Source of the DNA: Oerskovia merdavium
GTDB taxonomy: Bacteria > Actinomycetota > Actinomycetes > Actinomycetales > Cellulomonadaceae
DNA: 55,209 nt
Assembly (NCBI RefSeq): GCF_014836755.1
Contig: NZ_JACSQF010000020.1
Coordinates: 4,929 to 60,137 of the forward strand
Reading direction: 5' to 3'
Shown: positions 26,757-52,394 of the stretch, in pieces
Numbering within the stretch: position 1 is the stretch's first letter
Layout of the letters: the number at the start of each line of letters is the position of its first letter
Notes under the pieces: generated by a model
What the model was told of the DNA's origin: nothing
What the model saw: the letters and a program-made list of their open reading frames with translations, nothing else
Database searches by the model: none
Position numbers and translations under genes: made by a program

Positions 26757-27148
26757 GCGGATGAGTCGGTCGGTACGCCGGGTTCTGTCCCCGCGCGCGG
26801 TTGCCCCCGCACGGGTGACGGCCATCCATCTACGACGTACGTTGCCGCACGCCTCCAGCGGTCTACCCGGAAGCTCGGGCGAGCAGCCCTCGAACGCTTC
26901 CTGTCTGACCTTGCTCCAGGTGGGGTTTACCTAGCCGGACCAGTCACCTGGCCCGCTGGTGGTCTCTTACACCACCGTTTCACCCTTACCGCCCACGGCC
27001 GAGGCCGTGGGAGGCGGTCTGTTCTCTGTGGCACTGTCCCGCGGGTCACCCCGGGTGGGCGTTACCCACCACCTTGCCCTGTGGAGCCCGGACGTTCCTC
27101 GGCGGTGCCACGAGGGCACCGACGCGGCCGTCTGACCGACTCATCCGC
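26757..27148 (-). ncRNA. rnpB: RNase P RNA (type A)
   Basis: Catalytic RNA of RNase P, which trims the 5' leader of pre-tRNAs. On the minus strand the 392-base RNA has a perfect 15-bp P1 helix (27134-27148 with 26757-26771). The conserved 5' core GAGGAACGTCCGGGCTCC is followed by the CACAGGGCAAGGTG-like stretch, and the 3' side includes GAGGGCTGCTCGCCCGAG and the ACAGAACCCGGCGTACC segment. It begins 9 bases after the stop of the tautomerase-like gene. A TAGGCT -10 box uses that stop codon and points to transcription starting at P1. Confidence 0.96.
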
Positions 27149-36541: not shown

Positions 36542-36973
36542 ATGGACACCGACAGAACACCTCAGGCACAGGTCTGGCCCACGCTCCAGGCCCATGACGC
36601 GCCCGCGCTGATCGACTTCCTCGTCGACGTCGTGGGCTTCCGGCGCAACACCGTCATGACCGAAGAGGACGGTCGGGTCGCGCACGCGCAGCTCGACTGG
36701 CCGCCCGGCGGGGGGATCATGCTGGGGTCTCACAAGCCCGATGGCGAGTGGTCCCGTCAGCCCGGCACGTTCGGGGGGTACGTGGTCGCCGGGGGCTCCG
36801 GGAGCGGCGTCGGGGTCGAGGAGATCGAGGACCGGGCGACGCGCGCCGGGGCCACGATCGTCGCCCCGCTGCGTGAGACCGACTACGGGAGCCGCGAGCT
36901 GGTCCTCGCCGACCCCGAGGGCAACCTCTGGTCCATCGGGACGTACCGCGGCGAACCGCGCGCCGATCTCTGA
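36542..36973 (+). CDS. VOC family (glyoxalase/bleomycin-resistance-like) protein
   Basis: A 143-residue protein with the paired beta-alpha-beta-beta-beta layout of the vicinal oxygen chelate fold: WPTLQAHDAPALIDFLVDVV, VAHAQLDWPPGGGIMLG, then a second module VEEIEDRATRAGATIVAPLR and RELVLADPEGNLWSIGTYRG. The typical metal-site H is replaced by Q/A in the first strand (QAHD is nearby), so metal use is uncertain. It may bind or detoxify a small molecule sensed by the AraC regulator upstream. A CAGGCT six bases before the ATG suggests that a second leaderless transcript could start here. Confidence 0.85.
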   Translation: MDTDRTPQAQVWPTLQAHDAPALIDFLVDVVGFRRNTVMTEEDGRVAHAQLDWPPGGGIMLGSHKPDGEWSRQPGTFGGYVVAGGSGSGVGVEEIEDRATRAGATIVAPLRETDYGSRELVLADPEGNLWSIGTYRGEPRADL

Positions 36974-37017
36974 CCAGTCGTCCGCCAGGTCCTGGGACGT
37001 CCGTGAGCGCCCGTCGC

Positions 37018-38778
37018 CTACTTGGCCCGCGAGTAGTCGTCGACGATCGCGACCGTGAGCGGGAAGTCGACCGGGAAGTCCCCGAAGAGCAGCTTCCCGG
37101 CCTCGGTGCCCGCGGCCCGGATCTCGTCCGCGACGTGCTCGGCGAGCTCGGCGGGGGCGTGCACGATGATCTCGTCGTGCAGGAAGAACACCATGTGCGG
37201 CTGCTCGGTGAAGGGCGCGGGAGCCCGGCCGGGGACCTGGGCCTGCGGCATCGCGGCGAGCCGTCCCCGCAGCGAGGCCATCCAGCACAGCGCCCACTCC
37301 GCGGCGGTTCCCTGCACGACGAAGTTCCGGGTGAAGCGGCCCCACGCGCGGGTCTGGCTGCGGGCGCGGGACTGGGCGTCGCTCGACGCGGACTCGTCGT
37401 ACGCGCTGCCCTGCGTCTCCTCCCAGCCCGACCCGGGCGGGGGTGAGCTCCGCCCCAGTCGCGTGGTCACGATCTCGCCGCGCTCGCCCGCGCGGGCGGC
37501 CTGCTCGACGAGCTCCAGGGCCCGGGGGAACGCCTTGGCCAGGCGCGGCAGCATGAGCCCGCTCTCGCCCGTGGTGCCGCCGTACATGGCGCCGAGCATC
37601 CCGATCTTGGCCTGGGCGCGCGTCTCGACCGCGCCCGCGTCGACGATGCCCTGGTACATGTCGCCGCCGCGGCCGGCCTCGGCCATGACGAGGTCTCCCG
37701 AGAGCCCCGCGAGGACGCGGGGCTCGAGCTGAGCCGCGTCGGCCACGACGAGCTTCCATCCCGGGTCCGCGACCACGGCCGACCTGACCTGGTGCGGGAG
37801 CTGGAGCGCTCCCCCGCCGTTGGCGGCCCAGCGCCCCGTGACGACTCCCCCGACGACGTACTCGGGCCGGAACCTCCCGCCGCGCACCCAGGTGTCGAGC
37901 CAGTTCCAGCCGTTGGCCGTCAGGAGGCGGCTGAGCTTCTTGTACTCGAGCAGGGGCGCGACGACCGGGTGGTCCACCCGTTCGAGGTCCCACTTGCGGG
38001 TCGACTTCACGCCGACCCCGGCGTACTCGAGGACCTTGAGCAGCTCGGGGGCCGAGTCGGGGTTGAGGGCGGGGGCGTCGAGCGCGGTCCGGACCTGCTC
38101 GGCCAGCGCCTCGAGGCGGGCCGGCCGCAGGCCGAGGGGTGGCCGGGGGCCCAGGACCCCGGAGAGCATCGCGTCGTGGAGGTCCTCGCGCCACGGCAGC
38201 CCGGCGTGGCTCATCTCGGCAGCCACCAGGGCGCCCGCGGACTCCGCGGCGAGCAGCAGGCGCAGCCGCCCCGGGCCCGACGACGTAGCGACGGCCTCGA
38301 GCTGCCTGCGCAGCTCCGCGCCCGGGTCGGGTGGGGAGACGGCACGCCGGTCGCCGAGGTCGAAGAGCGCGTCGGGGCGCTCGAGCCCCGGGACGGGTGC
38401 GGTCGGTACCGGGACCATCTCGTCCCACGCGTCGCGCGGTGCCTGCGCGAGGGCCGTGCCTGCGGTCAGCGTCGAGTGCCGCAGGATCGCGCGGGACAGC
38501 CGGAGGTCGTGGCCACGCTCGACGCGCCGACCTGCGGCGAGGGCCGCGGGGTACCAGAGGTTGGTGTCGTCCCAGACCCAGCGGGTCGTGGGTGCTGGCG
38601 GTCCGGGCGGGGCCGGAACGGGCCCGAGGACCGCGTCGGGCCAGCGGGTCCGTCGCGGGGTGGCGAGGGGCTCGCCGCGGGTGTCGAGGTCCTGGACGTC
38701 GACGAGGCCCGGGTCGGCGGGCGACGTGCGGAGCGGGACCGAGTACACGACGCAGAGTCTGCCCTGCGGGTCTGACAC
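37018..38778 (-). CDS. PolA-family DNA polymerase with 3'-5' exonuclease-like domain
   Basis: A 586-residue family A polymerase without a 5' nuclease, annotated in actinobacteria as bifunctional 3'-5' exonuclease/polymerase. Polymerase motif A reads VVADAAQLEPRVLAGLSGD. Motif B is TRAQAKIGMLGAMYGG, where the usual NFG is MLG. Motif C is MVFFLHDEIIVHAP. The N-terminal 200 residues show only weak exonuclease similarity and few of the expected acidic residues. The GTG at 38778 has GAGGA directly adjacent, so the start is uncertain. It lies 52 bases after the SWIM gene on the same strand with no obvious terminator between, so it may be transcribed with the MoxR/VWA operon. A repair or translesion role is inference. 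Confidence 0.85.
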   Translation of the reverse strand: MSDPQGRLCVVYSVPLRTSPADPGLVDVQDLDTRGEPLATPRRTRWPDAVLGPVPAPPGPPAPTTRWVWDDTNLWYPAALAAGRRVERGHDLRLSRAILRHSTLTAGTALAQAPRDAWDEMVPVPTAPVPGLERPDALFDLGDRRAVSPPDPGAELRRQLEAVATSSGPGRLRLLLAAESAGALVAAEMSHAGLPWREDLHDAMLSGVLGPRPPLGLRPARLEALAEQVRTALDAPALNPDSAPELLKVLEYAGVGVKSTRKWDLERVDHPVVAPLLEYKKLSRLLTANGWNWLDTWVRGGRFRPEYVVGGVVTGRWAANGGGALQLPHQVRSAVVADPGWKLVVADAAQLEPRVLAGLSGDLVMAEAGRGGDMYQGIVDAGAVETRAQAKIGMLGAMYGGTTGESGLMLPRLAKAFPRALELVEQAARAGERGEIVTTRLGRSSPPPGSGWEETQGSAYDESASSDAQSRARSQTRAWGRFTRNFVVQGTAAEWALCWMASLRGRLAAMPQAQVPGRAPAPFTEQPHMVFFLHDEIIVHAPAELAEHVADEIRAAGTEAGKLLFGDFPVDFPLTVAIVDDYSRAK

Positions 38779-38830
38779 TCCTCGGCCACCGCCCCGGCCC
38801 GCTGCCCGGGTGCCTTCCTCCTGCCCCGAC

Positions 38831-40993
38831 CTACCGTCCGGTGAGCGCGAGCGCCCGACCGAGCACGAACCTCGCCCGCAGCACGTTCTCCGTCGTGGGG
38901 TCGGAGAGCAGGTCCGCGACGGATCGTTCGACGGTCGCCATCCCGAGGTCCCCGGCGAGGCGCTGGCGCGTGGTGAGCGCCTCGTGCTGCCATCCCGTGA
39001 GGCGGCGGCGGCCCGTCGCCCCGAGGGAGTCGACGACCTCGAGCGCGGGCTCGCAGACCCGCACGACGGGCCCTCGGTCGACGGGCTCGGCGACGTGCGT
39101 GGTCGTCGACGCCTTGCGCAGCGCGGCGATCCGCGCCGTGAGGCGACGCATCGCGGTCCAGCCCGGCGCCGTGCGGTACACGGGCGACATCGAGGGCGAA
39201 TAGAGCTCGAGCCCTCCCGTGCCGTCGCGCAGGAAGATGCCCACGGGCTCGTCCGCTCCCCCGCCCGGCTCGCGCTCGACGAGGACCGCGACCACGGGTC
39301 GGCGCGACGCGACGACCGACAGCAGCGCCTCGACGCTCCGTTCCTGGTCGACCGCGACGCGCAGGACGTGCGTCGCGCCGTCGGCCGCGATGACGGGCCA
39401 GGTGACCTCACGCCGCACCTCCTCGACCCCGACGGCCCCCGTCTCGCGCACCATGACCAGACGCACCCGGCGGGCCGCTCGACCGAAGCCGACCACCCCG
39501 GTGGTCGCGGTGTCCTGGAGCCGCCCGGCGATGGTGCGCAGCTCCTCGACGTCGAATCTCTCACCCCCCACGCGACGCGTGCGCGCGGTGACGCTGAGGG
39601 ACCCGTCGGGGCGGATCTCAGGGGCCTCGAGCGTGAACGGTCCCGCACAGACGCTCGCGACCGAGGCCCCCCACAGCATCGGCAGGTCCACGTCGCGACG
39701 GAACGCCGGGTCGGCTCCCGACGGGCGCGCGGCCGTGGCCGTGCGCACCACGCCGTGCTCCTGGTCCCAGGCCGTGAGGGTCATGCCGCGCGCCCCGCTC
39801 GCGGCGCGCCACCACCGCACCCCGAGCGGCACGAGGCGTCCGGGACGTTCGTCCTCCACGTCGGCCGTGGTGCCGCGCCCTCGCCGGGCCGGAGCGCCGA
39901 CCAGGTCCGGCAGTGCCCCGGCAGGCGCGTCCCGGAGCGCGGCCGCGAGCGCCCACGCCTCGGCGAGCGCGCCCAGCGCGTCGGCCTCGGTCACGTCGTC
40001 GTCGCGCGACGCGAGCCCGTCGACGAGCCCTGCGGCGACGAGCAGGAGCCGGTGGAGCAGCAGGAGGCCCACGAGGCGGGCCCGTCCGGCGGCTCCTCGG
40101 AGCGTGTCGGCGGCGTCGGCACCGAGGTGGGACAGCCCGGCATCGACCACGTGCCCGACGACGGCGCTCGCCTCCTCGAGCCCAGCCCGCTGGGCGGTGG
40201 TCAGCTCGCCCGAGCGCTCGACCTCGATCTCGTGGGGCCACGACCACGCGCGGCCCTCGCGCGCGAAGACACGGACGACCGCTTCGAGGCGTGCGGCGGC
40301 CTGGTCGGCGGCGGTCGACCTCCCCGCGACGACCATGCCGCCGTACCCCGCGGGGGCGACGAATACGACGCTGGTCGACGGACCGCCGCTCGGCCACGAG
40401 ATCGTGAGCCGTGCGCCGTCGATCGCGAGCTCGCACGCGTCCGTGATGCCGTTACCCTCCTCCGTGACTCCCGCGAGGAGCACGCTCGGCAGACGCTCGA
40501 CGACCCGCCGCACGGCCACCTTGCCCGCGGCCCGGCACACTGCGGCCGGGGTCAGGTCGAGGAGCGCGGCGAGAGGGTCGGCAGCCTCGCCGGTCTCGGC
40601 AGGTCCGGGACCGGGGCCCGCGGGGGCGCCGCGTCCGCCGCCTCCGTCGACCGTTCCACCGTCCGCCGCCACAGCCCCACGGCTGCCGTCGTCCGCGACG
40701 GGTTCGGGCGACGAGCCGTCCGGGCGCTCGCGGGCCCAGAGGCACGCGGCCACGACGTGCTGGCACACGCCCGCCGTCGGGCACGAGCACGACGCGGCGA
40801 CCGGACCCTTCGGTCCGAGCCGGACCACCGCTGACCCGCAGGCGACCACGACCTCGTCCGGGGACTCCGACGCGAGCGACACCTCTCCCCCGGCGAGGTC
40901 CTTGCGGGCGCGCCGCAGCAGGCCCGCGTTGCCGAGCGCGACGAGCGCGGCGTCGTCGTACCCCGCGAACACGGCCAACCAGGCGGGCGTCAT
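38831..40993 (-). CDS. SWIM zinc-finger protein (YehQ-like)
   Basis: A 720-residue protein, last of the five overlapping genes. The SWIM zinc finger lies near the N-terminus: C69-x-C71, then C77-x-H79 in ASCSCPTAGVCQHVVAACLW. A glycine/alanine/proline-rich linker covers about 90-135. The rest has alternating helical and strand regions without a recognised enzyme motif. SWIM fingers bind DNA or proteins. The ATG overlaps the stop of the VWA gene by 4 bases (ATGA). In E. coli the SWIM gene yehQ also ends the equivalent locus. It probably gives the complex substrate recognition (inference). Confidence 0.88.
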   Translation of the reverse strand: MTPAWLAVFAGYDDAALVALGNAGLLRRARKDLAGGEVSLASESPDEVVVACGSAVVRLGPKGPVAASCSCPTAGVCQHVVAACLWARERPDGSSPEPVADDGSRGAVAADGGTVDGGGGRGAPAGPGPGPAETGEAADPLAALLDLTPAAVCRAAGKVAVRRVVERLPSVLLAGVTEEGNGITDACELAIDGARLTISWPSGGPSTSVVFVAPAGYGGMVVAGRSTAADQAAARLEAVVRVFAREGRAWSWPHEIEVERSGELTTAQRAGLEEASAVVGHVVDAGLSHLGADAADTLRGAAGRARLVGLLLLHRLLLVAAGLVDGLASRDDDVTEADALGALAEAWALAAALRDAPAGALPDLVGAPARRGRGTTADVEDERPGRLVPLGVRWWRAASGARGMTLTAWDQEHGVVRTATAARPSGADPAFRRDVDLPMLWGASVASVCAGPFTLEAPEIRPDGSLSVTARTRRVGGERFDVEELRTIAGRLQDTATTGVVGFGRAARRVRLVMVRETGAVGVEEVRREVTWPVIAADGATHVLRVAVDQERSVEALLSVVASRRPVVAVLVEREPGGGADEPVGIFLRDGTGGLELYSPSMSPVYRTAPGWTAMRRLTARIAALRKASTTTHVAEPVDRGPVVRVCEPALEVVDSLGATGRRRLTGWQHEALTTRQRLAGDLGMATVERSVADLLSDPTTENVLRARFVLGRALALTGR

Positions 40994-42222
40994 GCGAGCA
41001 CCTCCCCGAGCCACTCGGCGAACCGCTCGGGCGTGAGCGCGGCGACGTGCATGCCGCTCTCGGCCAGGCGACGCGCCGTGCCCTGGTCGTAGACGGGCTC
41101 GGCGGACTCGTCGAGCGCCGCGAGGCCGAGCAGCCGGACGCCCGACTCCGCGAGCCGCCGGACGGACGCGAGGAGCTGGGCCACCGACCCGCCCTCCTCG
41201 AAGTCGCTCACGAGCACCACGACCGTGCGGCTCGGGTTCGTCACCTGCTGCTCGGCGTAGCGCATGGCCTTGGCGATGTCGGTGCCTCCCCCGAGCTGGG
41301 CCGTGAGGAGGACCGCGACCGGGTCGTGCGCGAGGTGCGACAGGTCGACCACGTTGGTGTCGAACACCGCGAGCCGCACCGTGATCCCTGGCAGGGCCGA
41401 CATGATGCCCGCGCAGACCGCGCTGTACAGGAGCGAGGCCGCCATGGACCCCGACTGGTCGACGAGGAGCACGACCTCCCAGGTGAGCGTGCGACGCGCC
41501 CGGGACACGAACCGCACGTCCTGGACGATCAGCCGGCCCGACTCGGGGTCGTAGCGCGAGAGGTTGGCCTGGAGCGTGCGCTTGCCGTCGAAGTTCTGGC
41601 TGACCTTGTGCATCGAGCGCCGCGACCGGTCCTTGCGTCCGCTCAGTGCGGTCGCGAACTGCGGGCGCAGCCGCCGCACGATGTCCTCGACCACGCGCGC
41701 GATGACGGACCGCAGCCCGGCCGCGGCACGCTCGTCGAGCCGGCCGCGGACCTGCAGCAGCGCGGTCGCGAGCTCGCGGCTGGGCTCGAGGGCCTCGGCT
41801 GCGTCCGGGTCGGCGAGCAGCTCGGTGAGCCGGTAGCGGCTCACCGCGTCGACCTGCATGCGCTCGAAGGTCTCGCGCGGGAAGAGCGTGCGCGCCTGGC
41901 CGAGCCAGTCGAGCGCCTTGAGCGCCGAGGGATCGAGGCTCCCTCCGCCGCCCCGAGCGCCCGGCTGCTTGCCCAGACGGTGGCCGCGCTCGACGTACTC
42001 GCGGTCGTAGAGGTACTGCAGCGCTCGTTCGATCCCTGCGTCGCCCTGCCCCTGCTGGAGCTCCTGGGCCGCGTAGCGCCCCAGGACGAGCCGCCAGCGG
42101 CGAGCGGCCTCCTGGTCGGTCACCTGGCTGGTCGCAGGGCCGACCGCGAGGCCGGTCACGGGGACGGCGGCGCCACCACCGGGGCGGCGGGCGCTGTCGC
42201 GGTCGGTGTGCGGGGCGGTCAC
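40990..42222 (-). CDS. VWA domain protein (YehP-like)
   Basis: A 410-residue protein. The C-terminal von Willebrand A domain starts at about 248 and has a complete metal-ion adhesion site: D255-Q-S-G-S in VVLLVDQSGSM, T in QLGGGTDIAKAM, and D in VVVLVSDFEEGG. The N-terminal part (about 35-240) is helical with a basic patch around RKDRSRRSMHK. VWA proteins paired with MoxR ATPases act as adaptors that bind substrates through the metal site. GTG with AGGAGAACC upstream; it overlaps both neighbours (GTGA at the DUF5682 stop, ATGA at the SWIM start). Confidence 0.92.
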   Translation of the reverse strand: MTAPHTDRDSARRPGGGAAVPVTGLAVGPATSQVTDQEAARRWRLVLGRYAAQELQQGQGDAGIERALQYLYDREYVERGHRLGKQPGARGGGGSLDPSALKALDWLGQARTLFPRETFERMQVDAVSRYRLTELLADPDAAEALEPSRELATALLQVRGRLDERAAAGLRSVIARVVEDIVRRLRPQFATALSGRKDRSRRSMHKVSQNFDGKRTLQANLSRYDPESGRLIVQDVRFVSRARRTLTWEVVLLVDQSGSMAASLLYSAVCAGIMSALPGITVRLAVFDTNVVDLSHLAHDPVAVLLTAQLGGGTDIAKAMRYAEQQVTNPSRTVVVLVSDFEEGGSVAQLLASVRRLAESGVRLLGLAALDESAEPVYDQGTARRLAESGMHVAALTPERFAEWLGEVLA

Positions 42223-44891
42223 GAATGGTTCTCCTGGAGGTCGTGGTCGGCCTGGTCGTCGAGCGTCCGGTCGGCGGCCGGGCCCGTGGAGCCGGCGTGC
42301 GCGTGACGCGTCCCGCCGCCCCAGGCACCGAGGCCGTCGCGGTCGAGCATCGCAGCGAGCTCGCGCTCGAGCGCGAGGCCCGCCTCGAGGTCCTGCTCGG
42401 TCGCCGCCAGGTGCACGTCGATCCGCTCGGCGCGGGTCCCCGTGCGTTCGGCGACCTGCTGCGCGAGCCGGTGCGTCTCGGCGGGCTTGAGCCACGTGAA
42501 GGCGCGGCGCAGGTCCGGCAGGACGGCCAGGAACGCGGCCTCGTCGAGGTCTCGCAGCCCGGCGTGGACCGCGTCGAACAGCTCGGGGGTGTGCAGCAGG
42601 AGGTCGGGGGCCACCCGCAGCAGCCCCCCGAGGAAGCGGACCGCCGCGACCGGGTCCGCGCCGGGGCTGAGCTGGGCGCGCACCTCGGCGACCAGCACGT
42701 CGTCGTCGAGGGCGTCGTCGACCGCGGTAAGCCCCACGAGGGCTCCCCGGACTCCTGGGGCCGTGCCGCGGTCCTCGCGCAGACGGTCCAGCTCGCGGCG
42801 CACGGGCTCGACGCCTCGTGCGCTGCGGCCGGGTGCTCCGCCCGTACCGGGCGCGTCCGCGAGAGCCCGCGCGCCGTCGTCGGGCACGCGGGGACGATCG
42901 CCCGCGCGGTGCACCTCGCGCAGGAGGTCTCGCAGCGAGACGAGCGTCACCACGGCCGCGGGCTCCGCGTCCGCGTCGACCTTCCCCAGGCCGGGAACCA
43001 GGTAGGCGGCGGTCGCCAGGCCGTGGTCGACCAGGTCGAGCAGCTCGGTGGCGTGCTCGTCCAGGCCGAGCTCGACGCGCGCGTCCCACAGGTCGACCAG
43101 GCGGTGCAGCCCGCCCACGACCGACTCGAGCGACGGGTCGACGTCGAGCGTTGACCGCAGGAGAGCGACGAGCCGGTCGAGATGGTCGGTGAGCCCGAGG
43201 ACGACGGCCTGCGCGACGAGTCGCGCGACCCCGAGCGCCGAGCGGCCCGTCGTCGCGAGCTCGTGCTCGAGCCGGTGCAGGCGGTGCACCGCGACGGCCT
43301 CGAGCGTCGCCCCCTGGTGCGAGAGCTCGACCAGGGAGGCCTCGACGAGCGGCGTCCAGGCGTACTCCCACTCCTCGACCAGCAGCCCGAGACCGCGGCC
43401 CGACACGTGGTCAGGACCCGAGACCTGGTGCGCGAACCCGCTCCCCACGAAGTCCATGAGCGCGAGGAAGGCCCGGCGCTCCCGGTGCCGGGGCGTGCGC
43501 CGGGCGTCGAGGCGCGTGCGGCGCGGCGTCGAGTCGGTCACGACGAGCCGCAGCGCCTCGGCCTGTTCCCGGGCGCGCTGGACGAGCGGTGGCGACGCGA
43601 GCCCCGGCGGGACCTCACCCAGTGCCCGGCCTCCGAACACCTCGGCGACGGCCTGCCCGAGGGGACGTCCCAGGCCCAGGTCGAGCCCGCCGTCGTCCTT
43701 GACGAAGCACGAGGTGAGGGCGTCGAGCAGGTCGGTACGCCCCGGCCACGGCCGCTCGCGCAGGTCCGCGAGACGACGAGCCTGCTCGGCCGCCGACGCC
43801 ACCTCGGCAAAGCTCACCTGCGCGCCACGGGTCGTGGCGGCGGCCGCGACGTCGACGAGGAGCGCGGTGCTGAGCGCCGAGGGCCCGGCGGGGTCGTGGT
43901 GCGCGGCCCAGAGACGCTCGTAGTACCCGGGCGAGGGCATGCCCGCGCCGTATCCGCGCAGGCCGTCGAGCCGCTCGTGGTCGTAACGGATCAGCCAGGC
44001 GTCGGCGGCGGCCGGGTCGCCGTAGCCGCCTGCCGGACGGCGGCCCACGACCGCCTCACCCTCGGGCGCCCCGGTGAGCGCCTCGACGAGCGCGAGCGTG
44101 TGGAACGCGCCCGTCACGACGACCACGGGCCCCTCGACCCGAGCCCTGTGCTCGGCGACCCGGGCGGACATGAGGGCCTCCCGTGCGAGCGACCCGTCGG
44201 CGTCGAGCACCTCCTCCTCGTAGTCCAGGCGCGCGAGCGCCGCCCATGCGAAGACGTCGTCGAAGAGCTCGCGCCAGTCCGTGAGCTGCTCGCGCGTGCG
44301 TGCCTCGAACAGGTGGTCCCACACCTCGTCGTGGTCGCGGCACCCGAGACGCTCCGCGATGGCCGCGACGGTCCGCGAGTGCGCGAGGTTGCGCTCGGAC
44401 TGCAGGGTCCGGGCGAACGCGTCGTCCTCGTCCTCGCCCGGTGCGTCGGGTGCGTCGGGCGCGTCTGACGCACCCGGCGCGGCGGCCTCCTCCCGCGCAG
44501 CCCAGGACCGGTCGACGAACGCGACCTGCGCTCCCAGCCGGTCGGCCGCGCGCAGCGCGACCCACTCGGGCGAGAACTCGGCGAGGGGGTAGAACCCCGC
44601 CCCCTTGCCGTCGGTCCCGAGGCTCAGCACGGCGACGGGAGGGCGCGTGCGGGGGTCGAGCAGCGCGGGCAGGAGCCGGCCGTACTCCTCGGGCCCTTCG
44701 ATGAGCACGACGGCGGGACGGACCTCCTCGAGGAGCGCCTCGACAGCGAGCGCGCACGCCGGGCTGTGGTGCCGGACGGGGGCGAGGTAGACGCCCTCGT
44801 CCCGCAGCGCCTCGACGCCCGCGACTGCCCGCCGCATCCTCTCGGGAGCGAGCCCCCAGGCCGCCCGCACCGGCACGGGTGCTACTGCCAC
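42219..44891 (-). CDS. DUF5682 family protein (YehM-like)
   Basis: An 890-residue protein of unknown function, third in the operon. Three conserved patches stand out: residues 38-46 PVRHHSPAC, 62-70 VLIEGPEEY, and VVVVTGAFHTLALVEAL further on. Their order and spacing recall the H, E and GxxH motifs of the TIKI/TraB/EreA/ChaN hydrolase group (inference). An acidic Asp/Pro/Ala linker occurs near 150. The C-terminal half is helical, with several leucine-rich repeats, and ends in a His/Gly-rich tail. The GTG at 44891 is chosen for GGAG five bases upstream; it overlaps the MoxR stop by 10 bases. Confidence 0.88.
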   Translation of the reverse strand: MAVAPVPVRAAWGLAPERMRRAVAGVEALRDEGVYLAPVRHHSPACALAVEALLEEVRPAVVLIEGPEEYGRLLPALLDPRTRPPVAVLSLGTDGKGAGFYPLAEFSPEWVALRAADRLGAQVAFVDRSWAAREEAAAPGASDAPDAPDAPGEDEDDAFARTLQSERNLAHSRTVAAIAERLGCRDHDEVWDHLFEARTREQLTDWRELFDDVFAWAALARLDYEEEVLDADGSLAREALMSARVAEHRARVEGPVVVVTGAFHTLALVEALTGAPEGEAVVGRRPAGGYGDPAAADAWLIRYDHERLDGLRGYGAGMPSPGYYERLWAAHHDPAGPSALSTALLVDVAAAATTRGAQVSFAEVASAAEQARRLADLRERPWPGRTDLLDALTSCFVKDDGGLDLGLGRPLGQAVAEVFGGRALGEVPPGLASPPLVQRAREQAEALRLVVTDSTPRRTRLDARRTPRHRERRAFLALMDFVGSGFAHQVSGPDHVSGRGLGLLVEEWEYAWTPLVEASLVELSHQGATLEAVAVHRLHRLEHELATTGRSALGVARLVAQAVVLGLTDHLDRLVALLRSTLDVDPSLESVVGGLHRLVDLWDARVELGLDEHATELLDLVDHGLATAAYLVPGLGKVDADAEPAAVVTLVSLRDLLREVHRAGDRPRVPDDGARALADAPGTGGAPGRSARGVEPVRRELDRLREDRGTAPGVRGALVGLTAVDDALDDDVLVAEVRAQLSPGADPVAAVRFLGGLLRVAPDLLLHTPELFDAVHAGLRDLDEAAFLAVLPDLRRAFTWLKPAETHRLAQQVAERTGTRAERIDVHLAATEQDLEAGLALERELAAMLDRDGLGAWGGGTRHAHAGSTGPAADRTLDDQADHDLQENHS

Positions 44892-46033
44892 AGGGACTCC
44901 GCCGCCGAGAGGAAGGACTTCCAGCGCGGGTCGCGCCGTGCACGCTCGCGCACCACGTTGTCGACGTAGTGCCGGAGCCGACGGGCGTCCTCCTCGTCCC
45001 CCTTGGAGGCCACGCCCGCGAGCTGGCGCGCGACCTCGGCGGGGGTCACCGTCCCGTCGCCGAGGTAGCGCGCCTCGAGCGAGGCCGCGACCGCGACGTT
45101 GACGGCCTCGGCCGTCGACATCACGGTCTCGGGTCGCTTGACGGGCGCCCCGTTGCTCGTGGCCCCGGTCCGCAGGTCCTGGAACGCCGTGACGAGCACG
45201 TCCAGGACGTCGCGCGAGAGCGGGGGGCGGTCGGCGGGCGCACCGAGCTCGGCGGTCAGCTGCGCCTCGATGAGGTCGATCTCGAACTGGCGGTCCGTCA
45301 GCGGCTTGATGGTCTCGAAGTTGAACCGCCGCTTGAGCGCGGCCGACATCTCGTGCACGCCACGGTCCTTGAGGTTTGCGGTCGCGAGCACGTTGAACCC
45401 CGGCCGGGCCGAGACCCGCGCCTCGCTCCCGAGCTCGGGGATCATGAGCTGCTTCTCCGACAGGATCGAGACCAGGGTGTCCTGGATCTCGGGGGCGCAG
45501 CGCGTGATCTCCTCGAACCGCACGATCTTCCCGGCGCTCATGGCCTGCTGGACGGCCGACGGCACGAGCGAGCGCTCGCTGGGCCCCTCGGCGATGAGCA
45601 GCGCGTAGTTCCACGAGTACCGGATGTGGTCCTCGGTGGTGCCGGCCGTGCCCTGGACGGTGAGGTTCGACGTGCCGCTCACCGCGGCCGCGAGCAGCTC
45701 GGAGAGCCTCGACTTCGCGGTGCCGGGCTCGCCCACGAGCATGAGGCCCTGACGTCCCAGCAGGGAGACGACGGCACGGTCCACGAGCGGGTCGTCGCCG
45801 TAGAACTTCCGGCGCACCCCGAGCTCCGCGTCGCCCACGACGAAGGCACGGACGGCCCGCGGGCTGAGCCGCCAGCCGGGCGGGAGCTCTGCTCCCCTGG
45901 CCCGGTCGGCCGCCTCGAGAGCGGCGAGCTCGTGCGCGAACCGCACCTCGGCGGGCGGGCGGATCTCCTGCGCCGCCTCGCGGTCGAGGACCGGGGGCGT
46001 GCTGCTCGGTGCGGCGGTCGGTGTGGTCACCAT
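44882..46033 (-). CDS. MoxR-type AAA+ ATPase (YehL-like)
   Basis: A 383-residue AAA+ ATPase. Walker A is GEPGTAKSRL (101-110). Walker B is IVRFEEITRC, followed by sensor 1 FNVLATANL and the arginine-finger region ALKRRFNFETI. The C-terminal lid carries TAEAVNVAVAASLEARYLGD. MoxR ATPases remodel or activate partner proteins together with VWA proteins, and a VWA gene lies two genes downstream. The ATG at 46033 follows GAAGAAGAGCGC and overlaps the DUF4132 stop by 7 bases, giving translational coupling through the whole operon. Confidence 0.94.
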   Translation of the reverse strand: MVTTPTAAPSSTPPVLDREAAQEIRPPAEVRFAHELAALEAADRARGAELPPGWRLSPRAVRAFVVGDAELGVRRKFYGDDPLVDRAVVSLLGRQGLMLVGEPGTAKSRLSELLAAAVSGTSNLTVQGTAGTTEDHIRYSWNYALLIAEGPSERSLVPSAVQQAMSAGKIVRFEEITRCAPEIQDTLVSILSEKQLMIPELGSEARVSARPGFNVLATANLKDRGVHEMSAALKRRFNFETIKPLTDRQFEIDLIEAQLTAELGAPADRPPLSRDVLDVLVTAFQDLRTGATSNGAPVKRPETVMSTAEAVNVAVAASLEARYLGDGTVTPAEVARQLAGVASKGDEEDARRLRHYVDNVVRERARRDPRWKSFLSAAESLWQ

Positions 46034-49000
46034 GCGCTCTTCTTCTCCCACTCGGCGTCGAAGCTGCCACCGGCAGCGACGGTCAGGTAGTCGCGGTAGG
46101 ACTCCGCGACCAGGACGGGCGGCAGGTCCGCGAGGCGTGCCTCGGCGCTCTGCCCGTAGGCCCGCGTGGTGCGGCGGAAGACCAGCTGGGTGAGGGCCGC
46201 GGGGATGTTCTCCTCGGGCAGGAACGCGCCCGTGAACTCGATGATCGCGGTGATCCCCACGCTCGGGTACGCCTTCTCGTAGCCCGAGAACCACCCGCCG
46301 TCCTCCGCCTGGCTGCGCGAGTAGCCGAGCTTGGTCGCGCGGCCGCGCACCGTGAAGCTGTCGGTGAGCCAGCCCTGGCGGTCCGCGATCGACGTCGCCT
46401 TCTGGTCCGTGACGGGCACCGCGACCTCGAGCTGGTCGAACAGCGGCTTGATCTCGTAGTCGGCGAGGTGCTCGCGCCAGCGGTCGGTCTGGTCCGCGCC
46501 GAGCAGCACCCCGTGCGCGACCGCCACGGTCGCCCCGTCGGCGAGGGTCACGTCCTCGTCGTCGACGTCGATCAGCGCTCCCCCGTCGCCCGGGCGGAAC
46601 GCCCGCTGGTCCGGACCGGGGTTCTCGAGCCAGACGAGGCCGGCGGCGAGCCGCGACATGATCGGGTGGCCGGCCACGAACTCCTGCCAGTCGGCCGCGG
46701 GCCACTCGCGCCCGGTGCACATGGCCTCGTACAGGCGCTGCGTCTGCAGCGCGACGACGGCCTTGAGCTCCTTCCTGCTCGCCGAGAGCTGCGACTTGGC
46801 AGCCTTGACCTGCTCGGCGTCGTCGTCCACCCGGGCCGCGGGCAACGCCTTGACGACCTTGCCCGCCTCGTTGGTGAGCTCGAGCGTGAACGTGGGCGTG
46901 ATGCGCCCCGTGAACTCGCGTGCGCCGAGGTGCAGGTGCAGGATCCCGTCGTCCTCAAAGCCCGCGGTCTGCACCGTGCGGTCCGCGAGCTCCTCGGCGG
47001 ACCAGCCCCGGCGATCGGCCAGGTCCTGGGCGAGGGCCTGAGCGGTCGCCTGCACCGTGGCCTGCCGGTGGCGGCGCGCGACCGACAGCAGGAGCTGGAT
47101 GGCTGCCGGGTCGCCGTTGGCCGCGAGCGCCCGGACGAGTGCCTCGATCTGCGCGCGTCGGGTGATGTGCGTCTTGAGGTACTGCTGGGCGGCACGGGAC
47201 AGGTCCGTACCCGGCATGCCGACGGTCAGGGCGAGCAGCCCCTTGTCGTTGATGGCCGACCCGAGGTAGTTGGCCTGGTGCTCGCGGAAAGCGTCCTGGT
47301 GGTGCTGGTCGACCGTCCGGGAGGCCTCTGCCTCGTAGTACTGGGGGTGCTGCTTGTACCAGTGCTGGTAGCGGTCGTAGCGCTGCTGGGCCTCGCGGTC
47401 GGCATAGGCGCGGCTCTCCTCGGCGGAAGGGCCACGCGTGTCCTGACCGATCCACGCGTCGAGCACGAACCGGCCGAGCGCCGCGCGGCTCTGCTCGTCG
47501 AGCAGCGAGACGTAGCGGGCGACCAGGCCGAGCCCGCTGGGGTCCTTGAGCTTGACGGAGAGCACGACCCACCACCGCACGACCTCGGCCGGCACGGGCT
47601 TCCCGTCCGCGGCCCACCGGAGCTGGGGCAGCCCGTCGACGGGGAACCAGGCCATGCTCGCGGGGGCCTTGCCCTTGAGGCCCTTGGTCGCCTCGGCGAG
47701 CAGGGTCACGGGGGCGATCTCCGTGGAGATGTCGTCACCGAGCGCCTCGAGCGCTCCGAGGAGCGCCGCGCGGGCCACCTCGCGGCGTTCCTTGGTGAGC
47801 GCCGCACGCAGCGCCGGGATCGCGGCCGGGTCTCCCAGGCGCTGGAGCCAGACGGCGGCCGTGACCCGGATCTCGGTCTTGCCGTCGCGCAGCCCCTGCT
47901 CGGCCAGGTCGCGGGCACCGGCGTGCGACTCGAGCACCTTCTGCGCGGCGACGCGGTGCGTCTTGCCCTCCCCGAGCGCGAGCTCGGCCAGGCGCGGGAG
48001 GTAGCGGTTCGGGATCGTGGGGAAACCACCGAGGATCGTGAGCGCGACCTCGAGCCGCTCGGAGCGGCTGTAGCTGTCGACCTTGGTCGGGGGGCGTAGA
48101 CCGAGGTGGGTCTCGAGCGCGGCAGGGTGCTCGGCGTAGTAGGGCCACAGGTGCTCGGGCGCGAACGTCTCCCGGGCGAACCAGGAGTCGAACACGAGCT
48201 CCGCGACGGCCGACTCGGCGTCCTGGACGCCCGCGCGCTCGACGCCGTCGGCCAGGATCCGCACGTCCATCGCGAGGTCGGACGTGGCGTTGAGCTGGTA
48301 CCAGGGGTACCGCTGCCGGCCCCCGCCGTGCGAGCGCGCGAAGCGGATGTCGTGGAGCATGGTCAGGCCCTCGAGGCGATTGCGGATCGCGGGTGCCTGG
48401 AGCTCGACGAGCACCTTGTGCGGCGGCACCTTGGTGAGTGCGCCGGAGAGGTACTGGCCGACCTGACGGAGGTGGTCGTCGGTGATCGCCGAGAGGTCCT
48501 TGACCGTTCCCCGTGCGTGCGAGAGCCGCCAGCTCTGAGCCTCGGCCTTGGGCAGCGCCTCGAGGTCCTCGAGCTCCTTGCGGGCCGCGGCGAGGCGGCG
48601 GTCGACCGCGTCGCGCGCCGAGCGGACGAACGGCTCGCCGAGCTCGGCGTCGGGCAGCGGGGTGAAGGGCGGGAGGTCGAGAGGCTCGTCGACCACGACC
48701 GTCTCGACGTCGAGGGCGGTGGCGCGCTCGAGCGCGTTCGAGAGCAGCGTGCCGCGAGCACCGCGGCCGTCGGCGGCGTGCGCGCGTCGCAGCGCGTCGA
48801 GCCCGCCCTCGACACCCACGAGGTGGGTCACGAGCCCACCGAGACGGCTCGCGGGCATGGTGGCGAGCAGGGGTTCGAGAAGCTCGACCTGGCGCGCGGC
48901 GGGCAACGCCGCGAGGTTGCCCGCGGCCTGCTCGCGCACCGACTTGGCGCTGTCCGTCGCGAGCTGCGCCACGACCCCGACGAACGCGTCACGCGCCGCG

Positions 49001-49920
49001 GGCTGGGCGCGCAGGAACTGGAGCAGCTCGACCTTGCCGGTCGCGCGCAGCAGCGAGGCGACGGCCACGACCTCGTCGCGATGGGCGACCAGGTAGTCCT
49101 CGACGCCGGCCTGCGCCGCGAACACCGCGAGGGGGTCGCCGTAGTAGTCCGCCGTGACGGGACGGTCGAAGATCGCCGCCACGACGGCGGCCGGGATGCT
49201 CTCCTCGGCCACGCCGCCGTCGCGCAGGATCACGACCAGCAGCTCGGGCGTCCACCGGTCGCGGATGCCGGGCTTGTCACCCTTGCCCCGGGTGCGGCGG
49301 TCGCCGCACGTCTTCGCGACGTCCGTCAGCAGGGCCGCGAACCAGGCAGGAAGCCGGTCCGAGGCGCGCGAGACGTCGGGCGAGACGGCTGCGAAGAGCC
49401 GTCCGAGACGGACGAGCGCCTCGACCTCGACGGGTTCGGTGAGCGTGTAGAGGTTGCTGCGGGCCGTCGCGCTCTTGTCCACGTTCCAGCCGGGCACGCG
49501 CTCCTTGATGGCCTTGTCCTGGGCCTGGCTCGTGTAGGTCCACACGCCGAGCGTCGCGGGTCGGTTGAGCAGGCGGTCCGTCGAGTCGTCGCCGCGCTGC
49601 GAGAGCTCGGTCACGAGCTCGGGGCCCTCTCCGGTGTGGACGTAGGCGACCGCCCGCGCCGCGAGACCCGGGGTGTCCGCGTCCAGGATCTTCAGCCCGT
49701 CGACCAGCCTGCCGGACGGTGCGCCGCGCCGCGCCTTCTCGATCCCGAGCGGCGCCCCGCCGCCCTCGACCGCACCGTCGTCGCCTCCCTGGAGCCAACC
49801 CTTGATCTTCTCGAACACGTGCTTCCCGCCGTCTCGTCCGGGCCGTCGGACCGGGGTCCGAGGGCGACCGCGCTCCGTCGGCGCGGCGTCGGACGTCACA
49901 GTAGGAGAAGCCACCGACAC
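46027..49920 (-). CDS. DUF4132 protein with HEAT-like repeats (YehI/MolR-like)
   Basis: A giant 1297-residue protein and first gene of the operon. Residues about 250-420 and 640-800 contain HEAT-like helical pairs (SVREQAAGNLAALPAARQVE, GKTEIRVTAAVWLQRLGDPA). The C-terminal third carries the DUF4132 signature: WQEFVAGHPIMSRLAAGLVW, VAVAHGVLLG, WREHLADYEIKPLFDQL and FRRTTRAYGQS. In E. coli the homologue yehI (formerly molR) stands in front of the same AAA/VWA/SWIM genes. The GTG at 49920 is the longest start without a clear ribosome site. A GTG at 49818 (VFEKIKGWLQGG), close to GGGAAG, is an alternative that would give 1263 residues. Confidence 0.88.
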   Translation of the reverse strand: MSVASPTVTSDAAPTERGRPRTPVRRPGRDGGKHVFEKIKGWLQGGDDGAVEGGGAPLGIEKARRGAPSGRLVDGLKILDADTPGLAARAVAYVHTGEGPELVTELSQRGDDSTDRLLNRPATLGVWTYTSQAQDKAIKERVPGWNVDKSATARSNLYTLTEPVEVEALVRLGRLFAAVSPDVSRASDRLPAWFAALLTDVAKTCGDRRTRGKGDKPGIRDRWTPELLVVILRDGGVAEESIPAAVVAAIFDRPVTADYYGDPLAVFAAQAGVEDYLVAHRDEVVAVASLLRATGKVELLQFLRAQPAARDAFVGVVAQLATDSAKSVREQAAGNLAALPAARQVELLEPLLATMPASRLGGLVTHLVGVEGGLDALRRAHAADGRGARGTLLSNALERATALDVETVVVDEPLDLPPFTPLPDAELGEPFVRSARDAVDRRLAAARKELEDLEALPKAEAQSWRLSHARGTVKDLSAITDDHLRQVGQYLSGALTKVPPHKVLVELQAPAIRNRLEGLTMLHDIRFARSHGGGRQRYPWYQLNATSDLAMDVRILADGVERAGVQDAESAVAELVFDSWFARETFAPEHLWPYYAEHPAALETHLGLRPPTKVDSYSRSERLEVALTILGGFPTIPNRYLPRLAELALGEGKTHRVAAQKVLESHAGARDLAEQGLRDGKTEIRVTAAVWLQRLGDPAAIPALRAALTKERREVARAALLGALEALGDDISTEIAPVTLLAEATKGLKGKAPASMAWFPVDGLPQLRWAADGKPVPAEVVRWWVVLSVKLKDPSGLGLVARYVSLLDEQSRAALGRFVLDAWIGQDTRGPSAEESRAYADREAQQRYDRYQHWYKQHPQYYEAEASRTVDQHHQDAFREHQANYLGSAINDKGLLALTVGMPGTDLSRAAQQYLKTHITRRAQIEALVRALAANGDPAAIQLLLSVARRHRQATVQATAQALAQDLADRRGWSAEELADRTVQTAGFEDDGILHLHLGAREFTGRITPTFTLELTNEAGKVVKALPAARVDDDAEQVKAAKSQLSASRKELKAVVALQTQRLYEAMCTGREWPAADWQEFVAGHPIMSRLAAGLVWLENPGPDQRAFRPGDGGALIDVDDEDVTLADGATVAVAHGVLLGADQTDRWREHLADYEIKPLFDQLEVAVPVTDQKATSIADRQGWLTDSFTVRGRATKLGYSRSQAEDGGWFSGYEKAYPSVGITAIIEFTGAFLPEENIPAALTQLVFRRTTRAYGQSAEARLADLPPVLVAESYRDYLTVAAGGSFDAEWEKKSAW

Positions 49921-50060
49921 GCATCGTTGCTGTCAGTGGAGGACTGTCGCGGCAGCCCGTTCGTCCGCCGTCCAGCCCGGTGGGAGCCCGTCGACGCCGG
50001 GTGCACCGCCCGACCGCGGGGCCCCGACGACGCTGCGGCAGAGGGTGGAAGGCGCGACGG

Positions 50061-50609
50061 TCAGTCGGCCGACGGCTCGCGCACCAGCTCGGCCTGGATC
50101 TCGCGGATGGTCGTGGCGAGCACCCCCGACGCCAGCAACCCCGCCCCCAGGGGACCGGAGGAGTCCTCGCCGAGCAGCGGCAGGTGTGCGAGAGCGGTGC
50201 GGACGCCCGCGGACATGTGCGCGACCTGCCAGCGGACCTCCGCACGACGGCCGGCTTCCTGGTCGGTGCCGGCGAGCGCGGCGGCCTTCGCCGCGTAGGC
50301 GGCCGCTCCGAGGGCGTGCGCACCCATGTGCGCGACGCCTGAGGCCTGCCCGGCTGCCCGTGCGGCGGCGACGGCCGCGGGCGTCGTCGCCGACTGCGCT
50401 GCCCGGCCCGCGACGAACCGGCGGCGGATCTCCCCGGCGGTGTCGAGCTCACCGCGCCCGAACGACCGTGCGCGCTCGACCCCGTCGCGCGCGCGTCCGT
50501 CGTCCGGAGCCTCGGCCTCGAACAGGGGAAGGACCCGCTCCGCGCAGTCCGCGGCCCACAGTGCGACCAGGCGACGGTCGGCCTCGTCGAGGGTCTGCCG
50601 AGATGCCAT
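50061..50609 (-). CDS. Putative immunity protein (Imm-5-like)
   Basis: A 182-residue, alanine-rich helical protein resembling the family annotated as putative immunity protein. It has WAADCAERVLPLFEAEAPDD followed by ARDGVERARSFGRGEL, then three Ala-rich helices (AAVAAARAAGQASGVAHMG, AHALGAAAYAAKAAALAGTD, RRAEVRWQVAHM). No toxin gene is beside it, and the family is also found away from toxins, so the immunity role is uncertain. It is upstream of and co-directional with the DUF4132 operon, 140 bases away. It is leaderless: CAGAGT lies six bases before the ATG. Confidence 0.75.
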   Translation of the reverse strand: MASRQTLDEADRRLVALWAADCAERVLPLFEAEAPDDGRARDGVERARSFGRGELDTAGEIRRRFVAGRAAQSATTPAAVAAARAAGQASGVAHMGAHALGAAAYAAKAAALAGTDQEAGRRAEVRWQVAHMSAGVRTALAHLPLLGEDSSGPLGAGLLASGVLATTIREIQAELVREPSAD

Positions 50610-50615
50610 GCGCCC

Positions 50616-50621
50616 ACTCTG
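50616..50621 (-). promoter_or_regulatory. -10 box of the Imm-5-like gene (leaderless)
   Basis: CAGAGT, then six bases (GGGCGC), then the ATG at 50609. Confidence 0.5.
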
Positions 50622-50689
50622 GCACAGGCGAGGCGGGCCTCGTCGGCAGGACGTCGTCCCGGTGCCAGGAGCACTGCCGACGTCTGTGA

Positions 50690-50766
50690 TGGTGGGCCCG
50701 GAGGGACTCGAACCCCCGACATCCACGGTGTAAGCGTGGCGCTCTAACCAACTGAGCTACAGGCCC
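50690..50766 (-). tRNA. tRNA-Val (anticodon TAC)
   Basis: Reads GGGCCTGTAGCTCAGTTGG and folds as a complete cloverleaf. The 7-bp acceptor stem (GGGCCTG with CGGGCCC) has one U-G pair. The anticodon arm is CACGC-TTACACC-GTG-like with anticodon TAC, and the T arm contains GGTTCGAGTCC. The discriminator is A and CCA is encoded (50690-50692). Confidence 0.97.
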
Positions 50767-50892
50767 CAGAACAGCGGTGCACAGCCTACCGGGTCACCGG
50801 CCGTGCCTCGCACATCAGCCGCAGATCGGGCATCGCCCGCCCGACGACGCACGGACCGCACCGGCGGACCACGCCGGGGCGCCCGTCGAACG

Positions 50893-50909
50893 CCGGTCCG
50901 TGGGACCGG
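50893..50909 (-). terminator. Small hairpin downstream of ahpE
   Basis: CCGGTCC-GTG-GGACCGG, a 7-bp stem about 100 bases after the ahpE stop. The other bases between the tRNA and ahpE show nothing. Confidence 0.35.
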
Positions 50910-51887: not shown

Positions 51888-52394
51888 TTGTGTCTCTTTC
51901 CCTTCTTCGTACTGCTTGATGATCAGTGCCCTGCTTGGCAAAGGTAGCCCACGGCACTCCCGCATGCCTCAGCAGGACGGGCGTTTCGTGCGGCGTTTCC
52001 ACCAGCGCAGAAGCCCAGTGTTGCGGGGAACCGCACTCGGCACAACGTCAGAGCCCGCGCGAAGGTGCCCCCACGGCCTGACGGGGGCTCCGTCGTCGGG
52101 CCTGCGGCGAGCCCGCACCCACCCTCGCCGGACCTCGCACGACCACCACCTTCACCCCCTGCTCACCCGACCCACACCCTCTTGTGTCATGAGGATCACG
52201 CTCCCTTGACCCCCTTGTGGTGTGACTTCCTGGCTGCGGGGTAACAGAATGGTTCGACCACCCGAGAGTGTGGAGGGCACAGTCGCCACCAGCGACTGCT
52301 CTCGCTGCGCAGGAGTGGCTGGAGGAGAGCGGGCACGGTGTACCGCGCCGTGATTCAATCCGAATACCGCTCCGAACGAGATATGAGGTTGCTG
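51888..52394. other. 507-base divergent spacer upstream of aceE
   Basis: No gene is supported. It must hold promoters for DUF3052 (minus) and aceE (plus). The last 200 bases are less GC-rich than the surroundings and contain TTGACC at about 52207 and CAGAAT near 52245, but no pair with good spacing. No riboswitch is recognised. The long leader suggests regulation of aceE. Confidence 0.5.

Follow-up and report, generated by a model that had tools for sequence, protein, structure and literature searches.

In described pairs of MoxR-type AAA+ ATPases and vWA proteins the vWA site captures a peptide, and the bound protein is remodelled upon ATP hydrolysis (PMC7159879). YehL is one of the seven named subfamilies of the MoxR AAA+ proteins, and the part of the source available to us assigns no function to it (PMC3893208). 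In Escherichia coli K-12 yehL belongs to the yehI-yehL-yehM-yehP-yehQ operon (b2118-b2122), for which no function was found in the open-licence literature searched. Here we describe an operon of the same composition in a 55,209 nucleotide stretch of the Oerskovia merdavium genome (contig NZ_JACSQF010000020.1; the whole stretch is called the window below), which contributes one member to the YehL subfamily. We propose, as a reading that has about an even chance of being correct, that the operon encodes a MoxR-vWA machine of the YehL type with a hydrolase of the Tiki/TraB/ChaN fold, the DUF5682 protein, at its centre.

Systems that combine MoxR and vWA with a third component have been described before. 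In the ternary conflict systems this component is VMAP, iSTAND, FtsH or a beta-propeller protein (PMC7159879), whereas in the window it is DUF5682. The terms Yeh, SWIM, DUF4132, DUF5682, EreA, TraB, Tiki, WGR and MolR are absent from the main text that describes the ternary systems. The vWA-MoxR-VMAP and other vWA systems reported near CRISPR loci (PMC10910872) are different from the window module. Enzymes of the Tiki fold include peptidases and esterases (PMC6254334). DUF5682, PF18934, DUF5691 and PF18944 were mentioned in none of the 5.39 million open-licence papers searched, and DUF4132 in three. At least two of six yeh and molR gene names stood together in three papers.

The operon and its relation to the E. 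coli yeh genes

The five genes lie on the minus strand (window positions 38831..49920) and overlap successively by 7, 10, 4 and 4 bases. The initial annotation of the stretch, made from the sequence alone, had described five overlapping minus-strand genes with products of 1297, 383, 890, 410 and 720 residues, and this was confirmed. The first gene (46027..49920) encodes a YehI-like DUF4132 protein of 1297 residues with HEAT-like repeats (Pfam DUF4132, E 2.8e-37; HEAT_2, E 1.7e-8), the second (44882..46033) a YehL-like MoxR-type AAA+ ATPase of 383 residues (AAA_5, E 4.2e-36), and the third (42219..44891) a YehM-like DUF5682 protein of 890 residues (E 2.1e-107). The fourth (40990..42222) encodes a YehP-like vWA protein of the CoxE type, 410 residues long, with a complete metal ion-dependent adhesion site (MIDAS; VWA_CoxE, E 4.3e-50), and the fifth (38831..40993) a YehQ-like SWIM-finger protein of 720 residues. 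The Pfam matches of the DUF4132, MoxR, DUF5682 and vWA proteins stood above the cut-offs; that of the SWIM protein fell marginally below (18.8 bits, cut-off 19.6). None of the five proteins reached an NCBIfam cut-off, and the bpMoxR domain scored 25.8 bits in the window MoxR, under its cut-off of 27.

For comparison 134 sequences were assembled: the window, the E. coli locus and 52 + 80 further loci, all found through DUF5682. The 80 named loci were those, among 569, whose DUF5682 was most similar to the window protein, so that counts lean to window-like architectures, and several loci share one genome or genus. The motifs of the MoxR, vWA and SWIM proteins, earlier described as intact like the HEAT-like repeats, proved to be conserved among these relatives. 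The MoxR P-loop GEPGTAK, the E174-E175 pair and the TAN and RRF motifs were near-invariant (69 rows), and the MIDAS residues D255, S257, S259, T314 and D340 were present in 70 of 70 rows. The SWIM finger residues C69, C71, C77 and H79 were found in 67, 68, 67 and 68 of 70 rows, respectively.

The E. coli operon contains the same five families in an order identical to that of the window, which bears out the initial description of a yehI-L-M-P-Q-like system; only in E. coli is yehK inserted between yehI and yehL. All five families stand adjacent on one strand in the window, and this is what defines a YehL-type operon. Identity between the window MoxR and E. coli YehL amounts to 48% (364 columns), whereas that between the window DUF5682 and E. 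coli YehM is only 27%. When YehL was used as the query against the genome from which the window derives, the window MoxR scored 309 bits and the runner-up gene 22. Judged by its similarity to YehL, the one MoxR group compared, the window MoxR is a member of the YehL group.

The DUF5682 protein is the predicted enzyme

In the proposed mechanism the MoxR ring and the MIDAS protein would bind either DUF5682 or its substrate and remodel it, and ATP hydrolysis would gate a hydrolytic activity of DUF5682, either peptide- or ester-cleaving; MoxR and vWA might also feed the enzyme. The SWIM and repeat proteins would recognise the target or signal. DUF5682 had previously been a part of no stated role; we refine that description by placing its N-terminus, on the strength of profile comparisons, in the Tiki/TraB/ChaN superfamily.

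Residues 30-335 of DUF5682 aligned with the ChaN profile (PF04187) at an hhalign probability of 90.6 and E 1.3e-6 (single comparison) over 177 columns. The controls gave probabilities of at most 3.4 (reversed profile), 0.8 (five column shuffles) and 0.2 (three unrelated profiles), and the best of 20 null clusters reached 12.2. When members of the superfamily were compared with each other in the same test, the values were 25.8 (TraB-ChaN), 27.4 (ChaN-Ere) and 0.8 (TraB-Ere). The superfamily profiles were built from 26 TraB, 9 Ere and 12 ChaN sequences. The profile inputs excluded L223, L228, L293, L297 (contig-end cut), L290, L295, partial or weak hits and hits without a locus.

In the alignment with ChaN, H42 corresponds to the histidine of the GExH motif and E65 to the glutamate of the EM motif, while R237-E238-x-x-M241 and G261-x-x-H264 correspond to RDxxM and GxxH. 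DUF5682 has the motif order of the Tiki/TraB/EreA/ChaN superfamily: His, Glu, RE/RD-x-x-M and GxxH. Conserved residues in a 133-row alignment of DUF5682 were H41, H42, E65, E109, D127, R237, E238, M241, G261 and H264. H42, E65, R237, M241, G261 and H264 were jointly present in 131 of the 133 rows; the two exceptions were L058, which is cut by a contig end, and L060, in which the gene is split across two frames. E238 was replaced by Asp solely in L154. This relative also matched Pfam TraB (E 9.8e-5; 22.8 bits, cut-off 26.8) and the ChaN 'Tiki superfamily' (E 0.037), both below threshold and both at the RE-x-x-M/GxxH stretch. Because DUF5682 matches the ChaN profile and its key residues are near-invariant, it is likely to be the enzyme of the module, a predicted hydrolase.

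Several observations weigh against this assignment. The match to TraB had a probability of 43.1 across just 44 columns, that to Ere only 1.3, and nine of ten scanned DUF5682 relatives had no TraB/ChaN match. The position of the GExH glutamate is occupied by R40 (127 Arg, 5 Cys and 1 gap in 133 rows), which, together with a large C-terminal half of no assigned fold, sets DUF5682 apart from the Tiki superfamily; the glutamate, found in the ChaN and Ere types, is likewise absent from the TraB profile. ChaN, the top match, is haem-binding in the wording of Pfam and has the same motifs, and therefore the motifs cannot separate a hydrolase from a binding protein. A sequence search of solved structures with DUF5682 returned only matches with E of at least 2, to designed or repeat proteins, and the Tiki-like fold of the N-terminus is predicted from profiles and motifs. 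No biochemical data on the module were found in the open-licence literature searched. Finally, DUF5682 stood without a visible partner in 4 of the 80 named loci (L119, L124, L154 and L155), two of which (L119 and L154) had flanks long enough to judge. The key residues are present in these four stand-alone proteins, which suggests that DUF5682 could act alone.

A module of five slots in two classes

Families in the loci were assigned with our own iterated profiles, and in representatives DUF5691 or SWIM was also recognised by Pfam. The set found in the window (DUF4132, MoxR, DUF5682, vWA and SWIM; class A) was complete in 70 of the 134 DUF5682-encoding loci, a co-occurrence above chance. In 31 loci a second set was complete, in which DUF5691 replaces DUF4132 and the SWIM protein is of a second group (class B). 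One locus contained both classes, and the remaining 32 were incomplete, some through contig ends. Past the finger, the two SWIM groups are homologous over 283 columns (probability 97.4). Homology between DUF5691 and DUF4132 was considered and rejected (17.5% across 81 columns, not significant). The module is one of five slots and two classes, in which DUF5691 substitutes for DUF4132 and the SWIM proteins are homologous.

Gene order was tallied in 98 full loci with all genes on one strand. The order DUF4132-MoxR-DUF5682-VWA-SWIM was found in 50 (and in one more with an extra DUF4132), SWIM-DUF5691-MoxR-DUF5682-VWA in 28 (and in one more with a DUF4132), MoxR-DUF5682-VWA-SWIM-DUF4132 in 16 and VWA-SWIM-DUF4132-MoxR-DUF5682 in two. 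The genes of the module change order by rotation yet remain clustered. Of the named loci, 57 extended 6.5 kb or more to both sides, and in 55 of them MoxR and vWA adjoined DUF5682. Scored with the class A profiles, 44 of these 57 loci were complete, nine had MoxR-DUF5682-VWA only, L167 and L169 lacked one class A partner, and L119 and L154 had DUF5682 alone. After the class B profiles had been added, eight of the nine MoxR-DUF5682-VWA loci and L167 turned out to be complete class B loci, and L177 was without DUF5691. The pairwise distance matrices of the five proteins correlated at 0.86-0.94 over 60 loci, a level equalled in none of 200 permutations and to which shared descent contributes; the five genes are co-evolving.

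Some loci showed further variation. The Lentzea/Goodfellowiella loci L156, L157, L162 and L166 have two or three tandem DUF4132 paralogues 5′ of a single MoxR-DUF5682-VWA-SWIM set. A third arrangement, VWA-MoxR-DUF5682, was seen in L082-L085 and L098, where DUF5682 is divergent and R40 is replaced by Cys in all five; in L082 and L084 an adjoining frame of 683 and 503 residues, respectively, had no Pfam match.

Taken more widely, the module may be a phylum-crossing, ATP-driven hydrolase machine, in which MoxR and vWA gate a Tiki-fold DUF5682, and SWIM together with the exchangeable DUF4132 or DUF5691 chooses the substrate. We put this extended proposal forward tentatively, as one that could well be wrong.

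A possible chaperone for cofactor maturation

Of the other explanations, the one that survives best is a chaperone for metal-cofactor or complex maturation, similar to CoxD-CoxE or RavA-ViaA, in which MoxR and vWA would insert a cofactor or assemble a complex, the ChaN-like domain of DUF5682 would bind metal or haem and there would be no hydrolysis. It fits the CoxE type of the vWA protein, the motifs shared with haem-binding ChaN and the position of MoxR next to DUF5682 in the 55 loci, and CoxD and RavA are MoxR chaperones (PMC3893208). The flanks of the operon were sampled as 136 of 374 open reading frames (ORFs) from 46 of 49 five-gene loci, and a control of 121 of 269 ORFs was taken from 20 loci around TraB/ChaN genes in 15 of the named-locus genomes; 12 of these genomes also supplied flanks, and G526, G527 and G528 did not. 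Both sets were random draws from greedily picked ORFs, and products above 1200 residues were excluded. No Pfam family recurred beyond three of the 136 flank proteins, which gives no hint of a client enzyme, and CO dehydrogenase genes were not among the 25 commonest of the 153 Pfam families found in them. We consider a cofactor chaperone rather unlikely.

Distribution and genomic setting

PF18934 (DUF5682) occurred in 10 of 149 genomes sampled across the phylum, in 33 of 297 genomes of the order (one of them under the family cut-off), in 23 of 81 genomes of the taxonomic family and in all six sampled genomes of the genus to which the window belongs. Of the same 297 genomes of the order, 22 had DUF4132. 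Both occurred together in 18, against 2.4 expected (Fisher p 2e-16); four genomes had DUF4132 without DUF5682, and 15 of the 33 had DUF5682 without DUF4132. The five-family set is common to Pseudomonadota, Actinomycetota and several more phyla, in line with the span from proteobacteria to actinobacteria claimed at the outset. In a FastTree tree of 78 DUF5682 proteins the window protein stood beside relatives from Promicromonosporaceae, in a group of 16 rows (SH-like 99) of which nine were from Pseudomonadota and six from Actinomycetota. E. coli YehM belonged to a separate clade of 11 rows, with Variovorax CF313 and also Lentzea-type actinobacteria. The module has likely been transferred between phyla, although tree counts of this kind are no proof.

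The gene yehM was present in 5284 of 5426 complete E. coli genomes (with at least 80% coverage in 5166), and 5289 of its 5291 places were chromosomal. The whole yehI-yehQ operon had a match in 5342 of the 5426 genomes, and in 3976 a single place covered 80% or more of it. Other parts of the operon therefore vary more than yehM. One E. coli lineage has been reported to have a transposon inserted in its DUF4132 region (PMC9334617). In a genome-reduced E. coli strain the operon lies within a deletion (PMC10652928) and is therefore dispensable there.

Downstream of the window operon, at a distance of 52 bases, lies the gene of a bifunctional 3′-5′ exonuclease/DNA polymerase A (37018-38778, minus strand; NF011538, 737 bits). 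The gene was matched in 80 of the 81 family genomes, in 73 at E 1e-45 or better and in seven by weak PolI-type matches alone. It belongs to the core genes of the family, stays where the operon is absent, and was rejected as a sixth operon gene. In PADLOC the polymerase partly matched (E 6.7e-12) a model of PolA associated with reverse transcriptase.

On the other side of the window operon lies tRNA-Val(TAC), so that the operon sits between the tRNA gene and the polymerase gene. Among ten loci of other genera around the polymerase gene the operon was present in two (L214 and L215) and absent from eight, and the eight operon-less genomes had no DUF5682 elsewhere. In six of the latter (L213, L217, L218, L219, L221 and L222) the gap between tRNA-Val and the polymerase gene was 2.4-13.7 kb and contained none of the operon genes, and in L216 and L220 there was no tRNA-Val within the stretch. 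Integration at tRNA-Val was not supported, since no tRNA repeat longer than 9 bases was found at 30000-50650.

Conflict with phages or other invaders would give the genes another role: MoxR-vWA would set a threshold, SWIM or DUF4132 would sense nucleic acid or protein of the invader, and DUF5682 would be the killing hydrolase. The initial annotation had listed defence among the candidate functions. Further MoxR-vWA ternary systems have been proposed as conflict systems (PMC7159879), and the patchy occurrence in the family, the likely transfer between phyla, the tandem DUF4132 paralogues and the greater variability of the E. coli operon relative to yehM are features that such a system could show. 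However, none of the five proteins matched a PADLOC-DB family at E 0.01. The flanks did not resemble a defence island either: at E 1e-10 no PADLOC family occurred in more than one of the 136 flank proteins, although weak enrichment could escape samples of this size; one family occurred in two of the 121 control proteins, and single defence-type matches were seen in both sets. The near-universal, chromosomal yehM also speaks against a conflict role, as does the scarcity of mobile copies: the window DUF5682 matched 25 plasmid records out of 72,556, chromosome-sized ones among them, and 1 of 50,697 phage records, in searches with the window protein that distant relatives could escape. Moreover, the operon adjoins the same polymerase gene in all six sampled genomes of the genus. 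The case for defence is weakened by these results, and we regard a conflict system as improbable. Given the flanks devoid of recurrent defence families, the near-universal yehM, the rarity on plasmids and phages and the operon-less relatives, the module has the appearance of a chromosomal function that is stably maintained, with gains and losses, rather than of an island. For the proposed hydrolase machine, a role in protein quality control, maturation or stress response is more likely than phage defence.

Regulation

Exact SOS-type palindromes (CTGT-N8-ACAG and GAAC-N4-GTTC) occurred 54 times over the 134 sequences, the window being covered at 30001-55209. Nine of them fell between 60 bases inside and 450 bases upstream of a system gene, one of these nine upstream of a DUF4132 gene (L162), and over the 134 sequences no box recurred at a shared promoter. 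Loose matches in the window numbered 73 (shuffle mean 25.8), none better than two mismatches; one two-mismatch site lies inside the DUF4132 gene (49846-49861). A sigma-70 scan of 36900-50900 gave no site, which is uninformative with 0.1 expected. In E. coli yehF, which carries PF05406 (the WGR domain), is situated upstream of yehI. The Deinococcus operon drA0165-drA0166, which encodes a DUF4132 protein and may be related to the module, is upregulated on DdrO depletion, and DRA0166 increases after mitomycin C in an IrrE-dependent manner (PMC8533742). A DNA-damage or genome-maintenance system, in which DUF4132, WGR relatives and SWIM would act at nucleic acid and DUF5682 would process protein bound there, has the Deinococcus response and the position of yehF in its favour, but with SOS-type palindromes that do not recur and window matches that all carry at least two mismatches it is very unlikely.

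Other features of the window

Between the tRNA-Val gene and the operon lies a gene for an Imm-5-like putative immunity protein (50061-50609, minus strand; PF21805, E 1.8e-34); in the relative L209 merely about 215 bases are found at its site. A class A RNase P RNA is encoded at 26758-27143 (Rfam, 306 bits), and the Rfam scan of the window detected nothing beyond tRNA and RNase P. A pyruvate dehydrogenase E1-type protein is encoded on the plus strand at 52338-55142. The 944-codon frame antisense to it (52152-54986) is less conserved and is probably a high-GC artefact.

Significance

The family was known and its function unexplained; our analysis adds a candidate for the enzyme, together with specified residues, and a two-class module of five slots. 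A probable enzyme and a set of residues to change make an uncharacterised E. coli operon, whose yehM is near-universal, testable in a laboratory strain. If the proposal is true, bacteria would possess in this module a regulated complex with protease or esterase activity that belongs to none of the Clp, Lon and FtsH families, and the enzyme gene of such a complex would be present in nearly every complete E. coli genome.

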